Shown piece by piece: positions 33,067-39,747 of a stretch of DNA of 43,700 bases. The first letter of the stretch is position 1, and each line of letters opens with the position of its first letter. The notes below the pieces were generated by a model. The model did no database searches, had not been told where the DNA came from, and was given only the letters and a program-made list of their open reading frames with translations. Source of the stretch: Synechococcus sp. J7-Johnson (GTDB lineage: Bacteria; Cyanobacteriota; Cyanobacteriia; PCC-6307; Cyanobiaceae); assembly GCF_024345795.1 (NCBI RefSeq), contig NZ_JAGQBU010000024.1, forward strand, positions 1 to 43,700. The letters run 5' to 3'. Position numbers and translations under genes: made by a program.

Positions 33067-33744
33067 TCAGAGATCGAGGCTTCGGCGCTCTTCCTTGAGG
33101 CGGCTGCGCCGTTGCTTGGCCTCCCGCAACATCTCGCGGCCATCGTGCAAGTAGCTGTCGACGTAGCCCAGGGTGTAGCGCTCCAGCTCCAGCAGGGCGT
33201 CCTGAACCTGGCTGAGGCAGTGATAGAGGCTGAGGCCAAAACCCCGGGCCTCGCTCGGGCAAGGGACGGAACGGTAGAGCGCCTCCACCTTGTCCATGCG
33301 GCTCTTGCTCTGCTCCAGATAGGCGCAGAACGCCCCCATCAGGCTGTCGTCGTAAGGATCGGCGGCCAGGGCACGCAACTGGCCGGGGAAGGGGTTGATC
33401 ACCTGGGCGAGCAGACGATCGATCGGCCCATAGACCTGCTGTAACCAGCCCAGCAGGGCCCCATCGCGATCAAGGCCGCGATGGGCTGGGGTGGCGACTC
33501 TGGATCCAGGCCGCCCGCTCCGGGCTGATGGTTGCCGGCTGAGGTCGTAGGTGCGACGCCGGTCGCCATCTCCCAGAACCGCCCAGGCGGCATTGATGGC
33601 CAGGATCGCGGTGTCATCCCCACCGGCATCGGGATGGTGCCGTTTGACCAGGGCGCGGTACGCCGCCTTGATTTCATCTGCCTCAGCCGTGGCTGGAACG
33701 CCCAGGACGGCATAGAAATCGCTGCTGGCCAGGGCTGCCTTCAA
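33067..33744 (-). CDS. J-domain protein
   Basis: Protein of 225 residues with an N-terminal J domain (8-70): FYAVLGVPATAEADEIKAAYRALVKRHHPDAGGDD, with HPD at 37-39, which stimulates Hsp70 ATPase. The rest has no zinc finger or canonical DnaJ C-terminus. It is helical and ends in a charged coiled segment (REMLREAKQRRSRLKEERRS). Partner and client unknown. The only start in frame is TTG 33744, since a TGA lies ten codons upstream. No clear Shine-Dalgarno is seen. It is downstream of the porin 1 terminator region. Confidence 0.86.
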   Translation of the reverse strand: MKAALASSDFYAVLGVPATAEADEIKAAYRALVKRHHPDAGGDDTAILAINAAWAVLGDGDRRRTYDLSRQPSARSGRPGSRVATPAHRGLDRDGALLGWLQQVYGPIDRLLAQVINPFPGQLRALAADPYDDSLMGAFCAYLEQSKSRMDKVEALYRSVPCPSEARGFGLSLYHCLSQVQDALLELERYTLGYVDSYLHDGREMLREAKQRRSRLKEERRSLDL

Positions 33745-33791
33745 GGGGATTGCTGGGAGCTGAGCCCATCATGACAAGGGCTCCAGCCATG

Positions 33792-33812
33792 AAAAAGCCC
33801 CCTGACGGGGGC
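33792..33812 (-). terminator. Rho-independent terminator of porin 1
   Basis: On the minus strand the stem GCCCCC/GGGGGC has loop GTCA and is followed by five T residues. It lies about 36 bases after the porin 1 stop, directly after the CUCACAC element at 33828-33816. Confidence 0.87.
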
Positions 33813-33815
33813 CAT

Positions 33816-33828
33816 GGTGTGTGAGGTT
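33816..33828 (-). promoter_or_regulatory. Yfr1-like AACCUCACACACC element in porin 1 3' UTR
   Basis: Between the porin 1 stop and its terminator the transcript reads AACCUCACACACC. The first ten bases (33828-33819) are a perfect complement of GUGUGAGGUU in porin 1's own leader (35546-35537), which includes its Shine-Dalgarno. The layout of CUCACACACC followed at once by a terminator hairpin recalls the 3' half of the cyanobacterial small RNA Yfr1. The function is inferred. Confidence 0.5.
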
Positions 33829-33847
33829 GTGGACTCGGGCAGCAGGC

Positions 33848-35533
33848 TCAGAACTTGAAGGTGGTCTGGACGAGGCCGCCGAAGTTGCTGAAGCTGTTGT
33901 CGTCGCCGGTGAGCTGTCCCAGGGGACGGCTCAGGTAGAAGATCGCCGGGGTCACGGCAATGTTGTCGGTGACCTGGAACTTGTACCACCACTCCCAGAC
34001 GTAGTTGCCGTCGGCCGGGGTGGTATTACCTGTGTCGCTGCTACCACGGGAAAGGGCGGTGGCGAAGACAGGCTGACCGACCGCCATACCGGCGGCATTG
34101 CCCTTGCCGAACAGATCATTCCACTGCAGGCCGACGAACCAGCTCTGGCTCTCGGTCACATAGGGATCAACGAATTCAACACCCAGGGCATTGTTCTCGT
34201 TGCCAGAGAGGCTATTCAGACCCCAGCCCAGGCTGATCGAGGGCAACCAGCCACTTTCTTTGGGCTGCCAGTAGGCGTTGGCCGCCACACTGTTCGAATC
34301 ACCAGTGGTCAGGAACCAGCTATTACTGGCTACGAAGTTCGTGCCCCGCCGGAAATTGGTGGCCTGCTGGCCATAACGATAGGCCAGCGACACGTTCCAC
34401 TGAGGAGCCGTGTAGTTCAGCTGGGCCAGGAAGTTGCCTCGGGCACAGTCGGTGCCGATGCCACCCTCGCTGCTGGAGCAGGAATTGTCGTCTCCATCAA
34501 AAGCCTGGCCTGCAAATCCCTGCTGGGCCACGTAGTTGGCACCGAAGCTGAAACCACCCTGGCCCTTCTTGACGTTCTGCTTCCAGATACCGGCCAACAT
34601 GGAACCAGTGGCCTTGTTGTAAACGCCAGGGGCACCATGCAGGCTGAACAGGTCAAGGATGCGGTCGCCCTTGCCGCTTCCGTAGACCGAAGGGGTGACA
34701 GCAAGCGATTCAGTGTTCCGGGCCTTAGGGCCAACAATGAATGTGAAATCGCGGCCGACCGGGAAGCGGTAGTAGAGACGATCAATCCCGATCGAGTCGG
34801 TGCCACCGATGCCGTTGCTGGCCACATCCAGGGCTGTGAGGTTAACCCCGTTGCCGTTAAAGGCGTTGTCGAAGTTCCCCGAGCGCAGACGGGTGTAGAG
34901 AAGATCCTTACCGGTGAAGCTGGTGAGCAGATTCAGCCGCAGGTCATAGCTGAAGGTGGTTGCTCCGAACTGAGCATTGTATTTTTCGGCTGCATCACGG
35001 CTGCCGAAAGTGGGGGACGACCCGAATACGCCGGCACCCGGGCGATCACCACTGGCAGTGACAGCGCCGATCACAAAGGTGGCCTGACCCTGAAGTTTTG
35101 TGGTGGTGGAGAACTGGGTTGCCTCCAATTCACCAACCTTGGCCTCGAGATTGTCGACGCGGCCGCGCAGGATGGCGAGTTCCTTCTCAAATTCCTTGAG
35201 CAGGCGGCGCAGCTCGTCGGTCACTTCGGTGATCCGATCAAGGCAGGCATTCAGCAGAGCAGCGGCTTCCCAGCGGCTCAGGGGTTGCTTGCCGCGGAAG
35301 GTGCCGTCGGGATAACCGGCGACGCAGCCATAGCGCTCGATTAGGTTCGAGAGTGCCTGATAGGCCCACTCGGTGGGCTGAACATCAGAGAACTGGGTGA
35401 TGCTGGTCACCTGATATTTCTTGCCGGCATACTTTTTCATGCCGTCCAGATCAAGCTCCCCAGCCGAAGCGGCCATGGGAGCCACCAGCCCAAGGGCGAC
35501 CGGTGCCAGCAGCAGACGCTGGAATAATTTCAT
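33848..35533 (-). CDS. SLH-domain OprB-type 'iron uptake' porin (porin 1)
   Basis: Outer-membrane porin of 561 residues (Som family). Signal peptide 1-24 ends MAASA. An SLH domain (43-100) carries TEWAYQALSNLIERYGCVAGYPDGTFRG, for anchoring to cell-wall polymers. A coiled coil (102-138, ELRRLLKEFEKELAILRGRVDNLE) precedes an OprB-like beta-barrel ending VQTTFKF with the usual terminal Phe. The barrel has cysteines near CSSSEGG and CARGNF, absent from porin 2. ATG 35533 has SD GAGG at 35542-35539, five bases away. It is a tandem paralogue of porin 2, and its codon and base use looks a little AT-richer. Confidence 0.93.
   Translation of the reverse strand: MKLFQRLLLAPVALGLVAPMAASAGELDLDGMKKYAGKKYQVTSITQFSDVQPTEWAYQALSNLIERYGCVAGYPDGTFRGKQPLSRWEAAALLNACLDRITEVTDELRRLLKEFEKELAILRGRVDNLEAKVGELEATQFSTTTKLQGQATFVIGAVTASGDRPGAGVFGSSPTFGSRDAAEKYNAQFGATTFSYDLRLNLLTSFTGKDLLYTRLRSGNFDNAFNGNGVNLTALDVASNGIGGTDSIGIDRLYYRFPVGRDFTFIVGPKARNTESLAVTPSVYGSGKGDRILDLFSLHGAPGVYNKATGSMLAGIWKQNVKKGQGGFSFGANYVAQQGFAGQAFDGDDNSCSSSEGGIGTDCARGNFLAQLNYTAPQWNVSLAYRYGQQATNFRRGTNFVASNSWFLTTGDSNSVAANAYWQPKESGWLPSISLGWGLNSLSGNENNALGVEFVDPYVTESQSWFVGLQWNDLFGKGNAAGMAVGQPVFATALSRGSSDTGNTTPADGNYVWEWWYKFQVTDNIAVTPAIFYLSRPLGQLTGDDNSFSNFGGLVQTTFKF
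35093..35413 (-). repeat. Near-identical SLH/coiled-coil region shared with porin 2
   Basis: Residues 41-147 of porin 1 and of porin 2 (copy at 37072-37392) differ at only two places by eye: residue 83 (Gln/Lys) and 139 (Thr/Asn). The DNA is also highly alike. The barrels that follow diverge. Recent duplication or gene conversion of this block is likely. Confidence 0.8.
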
Positions 35534-35560
35534 TGGAACCTCACACCAATTGAGGGATGG
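35534..35560 (-). promoter_or_regulatory. Porin 1 leader with looped Shine-Dalgarno
   Basis: The leader ends AUUGG-UGUGAGGUU-CCAAUG. A five-base-pair stem AUUGG/CCAAU closes on the start codon and presents the Shine-Dalgarno GUGUGAGGUU (35546-35537) in the loop. That ten-mer is the perfect complement of AACCUCACAC in porin 1's 3' UTR and largely of Yfr1's core ACUCCUCACAC. A TAAAAT/TATAAA -10-like region lies further upstream near 35575-35586. Confidence 0.45.
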
Positions 35561-35730
35561 TCCAAAAGGACGCATTTATATTTTATCGAAAAGGCAGATT
35601 AGGGCTGCCGCTCACGAACACATGACCAAGTGTCGACGGTCACATACCAATGTTCAAGCCCCTGCCCCGCAGGGGATCTCAAGCCCTGCTGCATCGGCCA
35701 CAACACCGCAGCCCTCCAAGAAAGCTCATC

Positions 35731-35756
35731 AAAAAGCCGTGGCGTAAACCACGGCT
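35731..35756 (-). terminator. Rho-independent terminator of porin 2
   Basis: On the minus strand the stem AGCCGTGG/CCACGGCT has loop TTTACG and runs into a T tract (35735-35731). It lies about 125 bases after the porin 2 stop, so the mRNA has an unusually long 3' UTR that includes the hairpin at 35802-35840. Confidence 0.8.
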
Positions 35757-35801
35757 GAAAGAAAGAATTGCTGTGAATCCGCTCAGCTCAGTGCCAGGAA
35801 G

Positions 35802-35840
35802 CCAGCCAGATCAAGGTGTGTGAGGAGTTGATCTGGCTGG
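35802..35840 (-). ncRNA. 13-bp perfect hairpin with Yfr1-core loop, porin 2 3' UTR
   Basis: Minus-strand arms CCAGCCAGATCAA (35840-35828) and TTGATCTGGCTGG (35814-35802) pair without mismatch. The 13-base loop (35827-35815) is CUCCUCACACACC. With the closing A it holds ACUCCUCACAC, the 11-base hallmark of the small RNA Yfr1. UCCUCACACA in the loop is the exact complement of UGUGUGAGGA in porin 2's leader (37526-37517). It could act as a 3' UTR element or be a processed small RNA. Unlike Yfr1, the core is in a hairpin loop, not between two stems. Confidence 0.5.
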
Positions 35841-35880
35841 AAAAAGATTCAGCAAAGGCTGATCAACTGATCAGGATGGA

Positions 35881-37512
35881 TCAGAACCTGAAGGTGGTCT
35901 TGACTAGGCCACCGAAGTTGTCGAAGGTGTCGCCGTCGGCTTTCTGGAACTGGCCTTGGGGGACGCTGAGGTAGAAGATCGCAGGGGTGATCGAGATGTT
36001 GTCGGTCACCTGGAACTTGTACCACCACTCCCAGGCATAGTTGCCGTCGTTGGCCTCGATGACGTCGTCGTCACCCGACTTGGTGAAGAAGGTGGGCTGA
36101 CCCACGGCCATACCGAAGGAATTGCCCTTGATGAAGACGTCGGACCACTGCAGACCCACGTACCAGGACTGGGTCTGGGCACCGTCGATCTGATCGAAGG
36201 TATCGGAGCTGTGGGCGTTGAGACCCCAGCCGGTGCTGATCGAGGGGAGCCAACCGGAGTTGGAGGGCTGCCAGTAACCGCTGATGCCAACGGAGTTGAC
36301 GCTGTCGGAGAGGGCATACCCGAGGTTGGCCAGGGGGGTGCCGTTACCGCCGTAGAGGCCAGCCAGACCACCCTGGGGGGTGGTGTAGGTGTAGGCGGCG
36401 GCGATACCGAAGTTCTCGTTGTTCCAGGCGATCTGGGCGGTGCCGGTCTGGGCGGAACCGTCAGTGCCGATGCCACCGATGTTGGGGTTACCCACGTTGC
36501 CGTTGACGGCCACGTAGTTGGCACTGATGCTGAAGCCCCCGCTCTTCCACCACAGACCACCACCGGAGCCGAGGGTCAGGGGGTAGGCGCCGGGAGCGCC
36601 GCCGTAAGTGAAGATGTCGAGGACGGTGTCAGCGGGGTACACGCTGGGCCAGAAGGCCAGCATGTCGTCCTGACGGACCTTGGCACCCACCGTGGCGGTG
36701 AAGCTGCTGCCCAGGGGGAACTGGTAGAAGAGGCGGTTGACTTCGACGGAATCGGCGCCACTGGGACCTTCAAAGGCAATCTCGAAGGCGTTCAGGCCCA
36801 CCAGGTTGTCGGGGTTGGCTGCACCCCAGGGGCTGGAGCCGAAGTTGCCGGCCCGGAGACGGGTGCGCAGCAAATCCTTGCCGGTGAAGCTGGTGTCGAG
36901 GAAGAGATCGAGGTTGTAGTTGAACGCGGTCGCGCCCTGCTGGGCAGCGGCGGCGTCAGCGAACTTCTGGCCGGGGGCCACTTTGTCGCCGCTCAGGATG
37001 GATTCGCCGAGGGTGGCGCGGGCATCACCGCTGTAGCTGTTGGCGCCGATGGTGAAGGTGGCCACACCACGCAGCTTGGTGGTGGTGGAGAACTGGTTGG
37101 CCTCCAGCTCACCCACCTTGGCCTCGAGGTTGTCGACGCGGCCGCGCAGGATCGCGAGTTCCTTCTCGAACTCCTTGAGCAGGCGGCGCAGCTCATCGGT
37201 CACCTCGGTGATCCGGTCGAGGCAGGCGTTGAGCAGAGCGGCGGCTTCCCAGCGGCTCAGCGGCTTCTTGCCGCGGAAGGTGCCATCGGGATAGCCAGCG
37301 ACGCAGCCGTAACGCTCGATCAGGTTCGAAAGCGCCTGGTAGGCCCACTCGGTGGGCTGCACATCGGAAAACTGGGTGATGCTGGTGACCTGGTCCTCGG
37401 AGGCGGCGTATTGGTTGATGCCGTCCAGGTTCATTTCGCCGGCGGTGGCGGCCACGGGGGCCATCAGTCCGAGGGCGACAGGTGCCAGCAGCAATTGCCG
37501 GAAGAATTTCAT
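35881..37512 (-). CDS. SLH-domain OprB-type 'iron uptake' porin (porin 2)
   Basis: Outer-membrane porin of 543 residues, tandem paralogue of porin 1. Signal peptide 1-24 ends VAATA. The SLH domain (43-100) and coiled coil (102-138) are nearly identical to porin 1, while the beta-barrel (from about 142) differs and ends VKTTFRF. Typical barrel repeats include YVGLQWSDVFIKGNSFGMAVGQP and AWEWWYKFQVTDNISITPAIFYLS, shared with the paralogue. ATG 37512 is preceded by GAGG (37521-37518), five bases away. The longer frame upstream lacks a signal peptide. Likely the main passive channel for small ions, including iron, though this is a family inference. Confidence 0.94.
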   Translation of the reverse strand: MKFFRQLLLAPVALGLMAPVAATAGEMNLDGINQYAASEDQVTSITQFSDVQPTEWAYQALSNLIERYGCVAGYPDGTFRGKKPLSRWEAAALLNACLDRITEVTDELRRLLKEFEKELAILRGRVDNLEAKVGELEANQFSTTTKLRGVATFTIGANSYSGDARATLGESILSGDKVAPGQKFADAAAAQQGATAFNYNLDLFLDTSFTGKDLLRTRLRAGNFGSSPWGAANPDNLVGLNAFEIAFEGPSGADSVEVNRLFYQFPLGSSFTATVGAKVRQDDMLAFWPSVYPADTVLDIFTYGGAPGAYPLTLGSGGGLWWKSGGFSISANYVAVNGNVGNPNIGGIGTDGSAQTGTAQIAWNNENFGIAAAYTYTTPQGGLAGLYGGNGTPLANLGYALSDSVNSVGISGYWQPSNSGWLPSISTGWGLNAHSSDTFDQIDGAQTQSWYVGLQWSDVFIKGNSFGMAVGQPTFFTKSGDDDVIEANDGNYAWEWWYKFQVTDNISITPAIFYLSVPQGQFQKADGDTFDNFGGLVKTTFRF

Positions 37513-37550
37513 GGGGTCCTCACACAAGTTGGCGCAATGCGCCTGCCATG
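37513..37550 (-). promoter_or_regulatory. Porin 2 leader with Shine-Dalgarno complementary to its 3' UTR
   Basis: The leader reads GGCGC-AUU-GCGCC (a tight hairpin, 37543-37531), then AACUUGUGUGAGGACCCC and AUG. UGUGUGAGGA (37526-37517), which holds the Shine-Dalgarno GAGG, is a perfect ten-base complement of UCCUCACACA in the 3' UTR hairpin loop at 35826-35817. Confidence 0.45.
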
Positions 37551-37656
37551 AAGAATCGCCCCCAGCCCAGCAGGCTGCCCGTGCAGGTGTGACAGAAAGC
37601 ACAACGGCTGCGGGGACGGCAACTGGTCCAGACTGGCCTGAACCGCCGCCAAGGCC

Positions 37657-39747
37657 CTGAACACCCGGTCCCAACGCCCCTGGCTGTGGTGGCTGGCCCT
37701 GGCGGCCATCTGGCTGGCTGGCAGCCTGGCCGACCAGCTCTGGTTGCAGCTGGACCAGCGGTTGCCTGCCTGGGATCAGGCCGACTACCTCAACAGCGCC
37801 GTGGACCATGGCCGCGCCCTTGGCCTGCTTCCCGGTGGAGGCTGGCCGGGCTGGCAGGGTCTGCTCGATCTCTCCCCAAAGGTGCCGCCGCTGGCGAGCC
37901 TGGTGAATGGCTCGGTGATCGCGCTCTCAGGCGACAGCCCCGATCAGTCCAGCGCGGCCCTGGCGCTCTGGCAGGGACTGCTGCTGGTGAGCGTGGCCTG
38001 TTGGGGCCGCCAACTGGTATCGCAGGGTTTCGGCCTTCTCGCGGCCGCCCTGACCACCACCACCCCGGCCCTGCTCAGCCTGCGGCTGGATTTCACCCTC
38101 GATCTGCCTCTCGCCGCCACCAGCGTGCTGGCGCTTTGGCTTATGGGGCGCTGGGCGGCGCCCGACCCCAGGGGGGGACGCTGGCAACAGGCCGCCGTCG
38201 CGGCCCTGGCGCTGGCGGCGGCCGTGCTGGTGAAGCAGAGCGCTTTGCTGGTGCTGCTCCCCCCGGCCCTGTGGGTGGCGCTGCGGGGGCTGGGGCGAGC
38301 CCAGCGGCGCTGGCAGGCGCTGGCCGCCCTGGCGCTGGTGCTCACCCTGGTGCTCCCCTGGCTGCAGCACAACTGGATCACCACGATCGGCGGCACCAAC
38401 CGGGCGGTGATTGAGTCGGCTACCCAGGAGGGTGACCCGCCGGCGTTCAGCCTGGCCAGCCTGCTCTGGTACCCCAGGCTCTGGCCCCAGCAGCTGGGGC
38501 TGGCAAACAGCCTGCCAGCCCTGGCGGGCACGCTGCTGGCCCTGCACGCCGCCTGGCCATGGCGCCGGGACTGCCCGCAGCCGCAGCCAGCCGATGGGAC
38601 GAATCGGGCTCAGGGCGGCTGGGGCTGGCGCTGGTTGATCGGCTGCGGTCTCAGTGGCTGGCTGTTCACCACCCTCAGCCCCAACAAAGACCCCCGCTAC
38701 ATCACCCCGGTACTGCCGCTGCTGGTGCTGCTGCTGAGCTGGGGCTGGTGGCAGCTGGGACAGGCCTTGCTCAGGCAGGGCTGGAGGCGCGCCAGCTGGG
38801 CTGCCCTGGCCGCGGGGTTGGCGGCCAGTGCGGGCAGCGCGGTGACAGCACTGGCCGGCGAAATCCGCTGGCAACCCCGCTCACCCTTGCCAGACGTGAT
38901 GGACACCATGCGCCAGCAGGTGGGTGATCAGCCCCGCACCCTGGTGATGCTCCCCAATGCCGCCGAGCTCAACGAGCACACCGCCACGGTGTTCGGACGG
39001 GCCCGGGGGGGGCAGATCGTTGCCCGACAGCTCGGCCGGCAGCCCAGGGAGCGAGAGCTGGTGCTGGATCAGGCGGAGTGGGTCCTGCTCACCACCGGCG
39101 AGGCAGGCATGCGACGGGAAGCCTCACGGAAGCTGGCCAGAGCGATCCGCCAGGACTCCCGCTTCCGGCTGGTGGGCCGCTGGCCCTGGAGCGACGGCGA
39201 ACCCGTTGAGCTCTGGGCCCGCCGCCAGCCCGTGCCCGCCACGACGCGCTTCGATCGCAGGTTCATTGAGCTGGCCTCTGGTCTGGAGCGGGGCCCGGCC
39301 GGGCTGGCGCCTGTGTTCGAAGCCATCGGCCCCCAACACCAGCTCGATGGCCACTGGCACTACCAGGGGCGGGTGATCGACTGGGCCGAGCAGCGCCTGC
39401 GCTCCGATCCAGACGATCGGGACGCCCTCTGGGCGCTGGCATTGCTGGCCGTGCTGCGCAACCGCCCCTTCCAGGCAGATCAGTGGTTCAGCAGGTTGCA
39501 GACCCTGGAGCCAGCGAACCCCTGGCCGCCGGCGTACCGCAGTGTGGTGCTGCTGGCCGGCTGGAATCCCTGGCGCGCCCATGCCGTGGCCACCGCGGCG
39601 GCCCGTGGGCATCAGGAGCCTGTGCTCAACGCCCTCGCCGATGTGAGCGGCGCCCTGCTGGCAGATCCCTTCAGTCTGCAGCGGGCCTTGCGTTCGGTTC
39701 CCCAGGCCACCCGCAGGGTGACCGACCAGCTGAACAAGGACAAGTGA
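37657..39747 (+). CDS. GT39-like membrane glycosyltransferase with TPR-like tail
   Basis: Polytopic protein of about 696 residues with roughly ten membrane helices, in the phospholipid-carrier-dependent glycosyltransferase (PMT/ArnT-like) group. The first loop has WDQADYLN, where the catalytic acid is expected, and FTTLSPNKDPRYITPVLPLLVLLL is typical of the helix bundle. A soluble C-terminal part follows, with LWALALLAVLRNRPFQADQWFSRL repeats. No ATG, GTG or TTG lies before TTG 37744, yet a clear first helix (WLWWLALAAIWLAGSLADQLW) is in frame upstream. I therefore suggest CTG 37657; TTG 37744 is the alternative. It is divergent from porin 2 and starts a three-gene operon. Confidence 0.8.
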   Translation: MNTRSQRPWLWWLALAAIWLAGSLADQLWLQLDQRLPAWDQADYLNSAVDHGRALGLLPGGGWPGWQGLLDLSPKVPPLASLVNGSVIALSGDSPDQSSAALALWQGLLLVSVACWGRQLVSQGFGLLAAALTTTTPALLSLRLDFTLDLPLAATSVLALWLMGRWAAPDPRGGRWQQAAVAALALAAAVLVKQSALLVLLPPALWVALRGLGRAQRRWQALAALALVLTLVLPWLQHNWITTIGGTNRAVIESATQEGDPPAFSLASLLWYPRLWPQQLGLANSLPALAGTLLALHAAWPWRRDCPQPQPADGTNRAQGGWGWRWLIGCGLSGWLFTTLSPNKDPRYITPVLPLLVLLLSWGWWQLGQALLRQGWRRASWAALAAGLAASAGSAVTALAGEIRWQPRSPLPDVMDTMRQQVGDQPRTLVMLPNAAELNEHTATVFGRARGGQIVARQLGRQPRERELVLDQAEWVLLTTGEAGMRREASRKLARAIRQDSRFRLVGRWPWSDGEPVELWARRQPVPATTRFDRRFIELASGLERGPAGLAPVFEAIGPQHQLDGHWHYQGRVIDWAEQRLRSDPDDRDALWALALLAVLRNRPFQADQWFSRLQTLEPANPWPPAYRSVVLLAGWNPWRAHAVATAAARGHQEPVLNALADVSGALLADPFSLQRALRSVPQATRRVTDQLNKDK

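Follow-up and report, generated by a model that had tools for sequence, protein, structure and literature searches.

The window analysed here, a stretch of 43,700 nucleotides from Synechococcus sp. J7-Johnson, carries two tandem genes for SLH plus OprB-family porins; both genes and all of their features described below lie on the minus strand. Porin 2 (543 amino acids) occupies positions 35881..37512 and porin 1 (561 amino acids) positions 33848..35533, stop codons included. In both leaders GUGUGAGG is found 5 nt upstream of the start codon. The porin 2 leader site, UGUGUGAGGA (37517..37526, core 37518-37525), is a Yfr1-type target at the Shine-Dalgarno sequence, and the porin 1 leader site is GUGUGAGGUU (35537..35546, core 35539-35546). 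Both 3' UTRs contain CCUCACAC between the stop codon and a predicted terminator, and the element lies 21 nt after the stop codon in porin 1 and 55 nt after it in porin 2. In porin 2 it is part of a hairpin (35802..35840) with a 13-bp stem and the loop CUCCUCACACACC, which holds the Yfr1 seed (core 35818-35825); the intrinsic terminator predicted at 35735..35756, with a T run downstream, follows 61 nt further on. The porin 1 element, AACCUCACAC (33819..33828), is of the single-stranded type and its core is spaced 5 nt from the stem of a predicted intrinsic terminator (33796..33813), which also has a T run downstream. Downstream of the porin 2 stop codon and ahead of the element lies a small hairpin (35849..35862) with a U-rich stretch after it. 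It is possibly a weak terminator or a processing region, and some transcripts could be shortened there.

A preliminary description of this DNA had reported that each porin leader is perfectly complementary to a segment of its own 3' UTR. The positions and letters it gave are right for porin 1 (leader GTGTGAGGTT, 35546-35537; 3' UTR AACCTCACAC, 33828-33819) and for porin 2 (leader TGTGTGAGGA, 37526-37517; 3' UTR TCCTCACACA, 35826-35817), and we confirmed the complementarity over 10 of 10 bases for each of the two genes. We also counted exactly four GTGTGAGG/CCTCACAC sites in the window, as had been claimed. This is an ordinary number, as the shuffled window holds a mean of 2.34 sites and 24 of 100 shuffles reach four; the unusual feature of the sites is their placement. 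A scan of positions 33700-37800 for sigma-70-like promoters found none, and as it found none for the porins themselves it says little.

We found that CCUCACAC forms the core of ACUCCUCACAC, which is the ultraconserved seed of Yfr1, a small RNA of cyanobacteria (PMC2190773, PMC2518516). The full ACUCCUCACAC is present inside the porin 2 tail AACTCCTCACACACC and is missing from the porin 1 tail AACCTCACAC. Porin leaders are established targets of Yfr1 in Prochlorococcus MED4 (PMC6778093), and the window leaders are therefore of a known kind. In an E. coli reporter assay reported in the same work, expression from the PMM1121 porin leader drops 4.7-fold with Yfr1 (3.8-fold with a control RNA) and Yfr2 relieves this repression (PMC6778093). 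The related RNA Yfr10 presents the motif in a loop atop a stem, and in vitro both Yfr1 and Yfr10 are bound more strongly by Yfr2 than by ppa mRNA (PMC6778093). The preliminary description had recognised neither the Yfr1/Yfr10 seed in the 8-mer shared by the two tails nor the porin leaders as a known class of Yfr1 target (PMC6778093). The 3' element is thus the seed itself and the leader site a known Yfr1 target type. As for the "new control layout" that had been proposed, it consists of an embedded copy of a known small RNA seed and no new motif.

Yfr1 is present in nearly all cyanobacteria. The canonical copy in this genome lies at G000:C45 (61 bits) with a GuaB-like reading frame upstream, and a separate canonical Yfr1 is found in 136 of 151 genomes of the family. 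Therefore the porin tail is not a moved yfr1, and we rejected relocation as the source of the porin tails. Rfam searches at the gathering threshold gave no match for the elements in the window, and the Yfr1 model (RF01116) gave no match in positions 33700-37800 at E values up to 10. In three other genomes a second, weak Yfr1-like match of about 30 bits lies beside the canonical yfr1 (G164:C1:1348576-1348637, G115:C1:1288239-1288300 and G169:C12:216967-217024). Extra copies of CTCCTCACAC occur in eight other family genomes; in G075, the genome compared, their places differ from the porin places.

The genome contains 64 GTGTGAGG/CCTCACAC sites. Outside the window a seed with a terminator-like hairpin at most 70 nt downstream occurs in one of 59 distinct contexts, and this one is the canonical Yfr1. 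Both window elements follow the same rule, which with yfr1 makes three. We therefore rejected a generic 3'-UTR motif of many genes, the combination of seed and terminator being limited to yfr1, among the 59 other contexts, and to the two porin tails. On the target side, GTGTGAGG lies 3-16 nt upstream of an ATG or GTG opening at least 60 codons in 4 of the 59 contexts elsewhere. A Cyano-1 hit on the opposite strand over the seed (19.3 bits, cut-off 41) was discarded as merely the antisense of the seed. The genome does encode a Cyano-1 RNA (RF01701), which we take to correspond to Yfr2, at G000:C1:135557-135626 (L291, 48.2 bits). Its 5' end, GTGTGAGGAG, is complementary to the porin 2 loop at 10 of 10 bases, and judged by this sequence the Cyano-1 RNA would be the natural partner of the seed.

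The preliminary description had named conservation of the 3' elements in relatives as a test, and here its expectation was borne out. We assembled a BLAST-anchored catalogue of 236 distinct porin 3' ends among the matches listed and kept the 235 with at least 160 nt downstream, the remaining one having too little downstream sequence. The catalogue is drawn from part of the listed matches, leans to close relatives of porin 2 and includes a few ends from outside the family. We found CCTCACAC within 160 nt of the stop codon in 56 of the 235 ends among the matches listed. When the ends were dinucleotide-shuffled, a mean of 1.1 and a maximum of 5 carried it in 300 rounds, and its reverse complement is present in 3 of the 235. 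The motif is concentrated close to the gene: among the 234 ends with 300 nt available it lies at nt 0-140 in 56 and at nt 160-300 in one. It is found in 31 of 145 clusters of similar tails. Two earlier sets preceded this catalogue. One of 105 ends, collected by a C-terminal pattern, missed many genes including the third porin type of the genus; in the other, of 176 BLAST-anchored ends, the motif was present in 49, against a mean of 1.3 when all 168 orderings of its letters, the motif among them, were counted. The runner-up ordering, CCCTCACA, occurred in 24 of the 176 and overlaps the motif.

Within the genus (nine genomes, 26 catalogue ends) the tail is present in 9 of 9 genes of the porin 2 type and 8 of 9 of the porin 1 type, and in none of the 7 of the third type or the one fragment (0/1). 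This third type (G000:C16:7486-9042; L075, L076, L078, L251, L253, L263 and L269) lacks the leader site as well as the 3' element. Outside the family, 1 of 34 porin ends among the matches listed has the CCTCACAC tail, and GTGTGAGG occurs in 18 of the 34 by a coarse rule, anywhere in a 510-nt stretch around the start of the open frame. One record titled as a Bifidobacterium breve MAG (L277, CALPNT020000083.1) encodes a cyanobacterial porin and is likely mislabelled or contaminated.

The tails have two RNA architectures. In class A the seed sits in a hairpin loop with a separate terminator downstream, and in class B an unpaired seed directly precedes the terminator. Porin 2 belongs to class A and is Yfr10-like, with its seed in the loop of the 13-bp hairpin, while porin 1 belongs to class B, its seed just upstream of the terminator as in the 3' half of Yfr1. 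The split was made by pattern and gave 36 class A and 20 class B elements for the structure tests, or 40 and 16 under another pattern. The 36 class A elements can be sorted by their flanks into 16 groups. We found a stem of at least 6 bp around the seed in 11 of these groups, compared to 21 of 240 pairings of flanks across groups, and none of 20000 permutations reached the mean of the real pairings; the other 5 groups lack a 6-bp stem. Stem positions 1-7 each show 3-4 pair types over the 11 stems, so that the two sides of the hairpin co-vary around the seed. Such hairpins are found across eight genus labels (g1, g10, g34, g45, g48, g49, g50 and g52). The stems of the window's genus are close copies of one another, and those of the L239 and L223 groups are related, but most groups look unrelated. 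In class B, 14 of 16 elements (40/16 split) have no such stem.

Among class A elements, 32 of 36 have a predicted terminator-like hairpin downstream of the motif; in class B the figure is 19 of 20, and there the median distance from the seed is 8 nt. Such a hairpin intervenes between the stop codon and the motif in 3 of the 36 class A ends and 0 of the 20 in class B. By prediction the seed is mostly unpaired (probability above 0.8) in 31 of the 36 class A elements and in 10 of the 20 in class B. For the window genes the predicted unpaired probability is 0.998 in porin 2 and 0.53 in porin 1, where the seed is half unpaired.

A leader could be read for 201 of the 235 ends (34 had none). The leader core is present in 144 of these 201 catalogue leaders and in 134 of the 144 it lies 3-7 nt before the start codon. 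We found both sites in 51 genes, the leader site only in 93, the tail only in one and neither in 56. Thus among the matches listed 51 of 52 tail-bearing genes with a readable leader also have the leader site, and the tail is present in 1 of 57 genes without it (Fisher p = 6e-8, with phylogeny not corrected for). The single exception is a porin of G012 (L025, identical to L207), whose leader reads GTGTGAGA. Since the exact tail is missing from 93 of the 144 porins with a leader site, the tail is not needed for leader control. A near match is present in 31 of these 93, compared to a mean of 5.7 and a maximum of 12 in 200 rounds of shuffling and to 2 of the 57 genes that lack the leader site. The third porin type, with both sites missing (0/7), indicates that the link between leader and tail partly follows gene ancestry.

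Within the leaders themselves, CCTC(A) upstream of the Shine-Dalgarno core (70 of the 144; in the window at 35534-35570) is able to pair with that core, and the ribosome site may therefore already be partly masked in cis. The leader core is often predicted to be paired inside the leader, with a mean unpaired probability of 0.37 over 51 leaders. A palindrome at 37531-37543 (minus strand GGCGCATTGCGCC) lies directly upstream of the porin 2 leader site, and a similar hairpin is present in 35 of the 144 GTGTGAGG-bearing leaders, those of class A porins in relatives among them.

The preliminary description further held that the bases at which the two leaders differ, GGUU against GGA, are matched by compensating changes in the 3' elements, so that pairing is kept within each gene. 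This did not extend to the other genes. In the 51 genes with both sites, pairing past the 8-nt core continues for a mean of 1.16 bases with the gene's own tail and 1.17 bases with tails dealt to other genes, and 1188 of 2000 permutations reach the own-pair value. We therefore rejected cis pairing with gene-specific covariation. The apparent GGUU/GGA compensation is not a rule: 47 of the 51 genes have A beside the core in the leader, and at the corresponding tail position 29 have T, 19 have C, 2 have A and 1 has G. The seed itself is constant, as would be expected for a partner shared by these genes. The interaction energies, which had been proposed as a check, favoured the own pairs only moderately: the predicted duplex of each window leader with its own tail is better than with shuffled sequences, a value that 3 and 5 of 200 shuffles still reach. 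Of the regulatory interpretation offered earlier, the conserved 3' elements within predicted transcribed 3' UTRs stand, as does action in trans as the likeliest mode, and a private 5'-3' pairing does not.

We propose that the porin 3' UTR gives rise to an RNA that mimics Yfr1, acts in trans to repress the translation of porins and joins the Yfr1/Yfr2 network, and we assign this reading a probability of about 0.58. The analysis shows the sequence, position and conservation of the element, the co-variation in its hairpin and its link to the leader site; release as a small RNA, repression and feedback are the steps that we infer. The 3' end of the porin mRNA would probably be freed by cleavage in the U-rich stretch; alternatively, the tail may be left on the mRNA. 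Its seed would base-pair with the GUGUGAGG of the leaders, where the ribosome binds, both in its own porin and in the paralogue, and this pairing would block translation as Yfr1 does. A high level of porin mRNA would therefore limit porin synthesis. Through the shared seed the tail would also compete with Yfr1 and bind Yfr2-type RNAs, by which porin output would be tied to the network.

The main competing explanation is that the tail acts as a sponge, which titrates Yfr2, whose 5' end carries GUGUGAGGAG, and so frees Yfr1; the porin mRNA would then set Yfr1 activity. The 10 of 10 match between the GTGTGAGGAG end of the genome's own Cyano-1 RNA (RF01701) and the porin 2 loop fits this, and so does the stronger in vitro binding of Yfr1 and Yfr10 by Yfr2 than by ppa mRNA (PMC6778093). 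We nevertheless consider it unlikely, since a sponge does not require its genes to have a leader site, yet 51 of 52 tail genes have one, and since Cyano-1 is predicted to pair with the two elements no better than with shuffled sequences (44 and 125 of 200 shuffles reach the values). A brake and a sponge for Yfr2-type RNAs are compatible, and the tail can be both at once. Still less probable is a direct 5'-3' contact in which the tail folds back onto the ribosome site of its own mRNA. The 8-10 complementary bases and the presence of tail and leader site in the same genes would suit such a contact, but bases past the core do not covary in the 51 genes, and in the minimum-energy fold of a porin 2 transcript of 1821 nt the leader site pairs elsewhere and the seed in the tail stays unpaired. 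The display of the seed in a hairpin loop would also better suit a diffusible RNA.

Comparably improbable, in our view, is that the motif is bound by some other RNA or by a protein and in this way sets the stability or 3' processing of the porin mRNA, leaving the leaders untouched. Voss et al. is cited in support of this possibility, and the seed is mostly unpaired and close to terminators, but the linkage of tail to leader site argues against it. That the motif reflects chance or common ancestry of porin 3' ends and has no function is already disfavoured, and we regard it as very improbable. Its patchy presence, the close-copy stems within the genus and the related stems of some groups (L239, L223) would agree with such an origin; different stems around a fixed 8-mer (0 of 20000 permutations) and the occurrence of the motif in 31 of 145 tail clusters do not.

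Several known systems resemble the porin tails. Like Yfr1 (RF01116), the window elements have the seed ACUCCUCACAC/CCUCACAC and would have porin leaders as targets, and in class B the order of seed, short linker and terminator hairpin is similar to that in the 3' half of Yfr1. In contrast to the window elements, Yfr1 is a separate gene, mostly near guaB or trxA, with its seed unpaired between two stem-loops; the window elements fall below the Rfam gathering threshold and lie inside porin 3' UTRs. In its porin 2 form, and in 11 of the 16 flank groups of class A, the element shows the seed in a loop on a stem as Yfr10 does, whereas the porin 1 type lacks such a stem.

A further parallel is with OppZ and CarZ, autoregulatory 3'-UTR small RNAs of Vibrio cholerae that pair with their own transcript and inhibit its translation (PMC7398697); for the porins this is predicted. 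As in those RNAs, the porin element has a predicted position in the mRNA 3' UTR ahead of a terminator and is complementary to its own translation start region, with all 10 bases matching in both window genes. Unlike OppZ and CarZ as described there, the porin tail uses the seed of a phylum-wide small RNA and comes in two architectures, and its release by RNase E is assumed. ApcZ of Synechocystis is likewise a cyanobacterial 3'-end-derived small RNA that shares the terminator of an mRNA (PMC8136909). It differs from the porin tails in acting on ocp through another pairing region and in having a promoter inside apcC (PMC8136909).

Both the Yfr1 seed and 3'-UTR small RNAs are already known. In the open-licence literature searched, we found no description of the Yfr1 seed as a recurrent module of porin 3' UTRs. 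At even odds, we suggest that the porin genes of one cyanobacterial family have incorporated the Yfr1 seed into the 3' UTRs of their mRNAs, in two architectures and with several unrelated stems, so that each such mRNA would yield a mimic of its own repressor and rewire the Yfr1/Yfr2 network in proportion to porin expression. This bears on the spread of the Yfr1 seed to new RNAs and on the limits set to porin output. If true, it would be a clear natural case of 3'-UTR autoregulation in evolution, in which the seed stays fixed while the stem is free to change. It would also predict a family of unannotated small RNAs and add a porin-coupled competitor for which studies of Yfr1 and Yfr2 would have to account.

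Yfr10, Yfr12, Yfr18, Yfr104 and Syr5 have the same seed, and according to the accounts available their sequence and synteny are otherwise not conserved (PMC6778093, PMC2518516). Unlike the porin tails, Yfr10 of Prochlorococcus HL strains is reported to be encoded upstream of yfr2. The Yfr10 described from WH8102 (PMC6778093) could itself be a porin 3'-UTR element.
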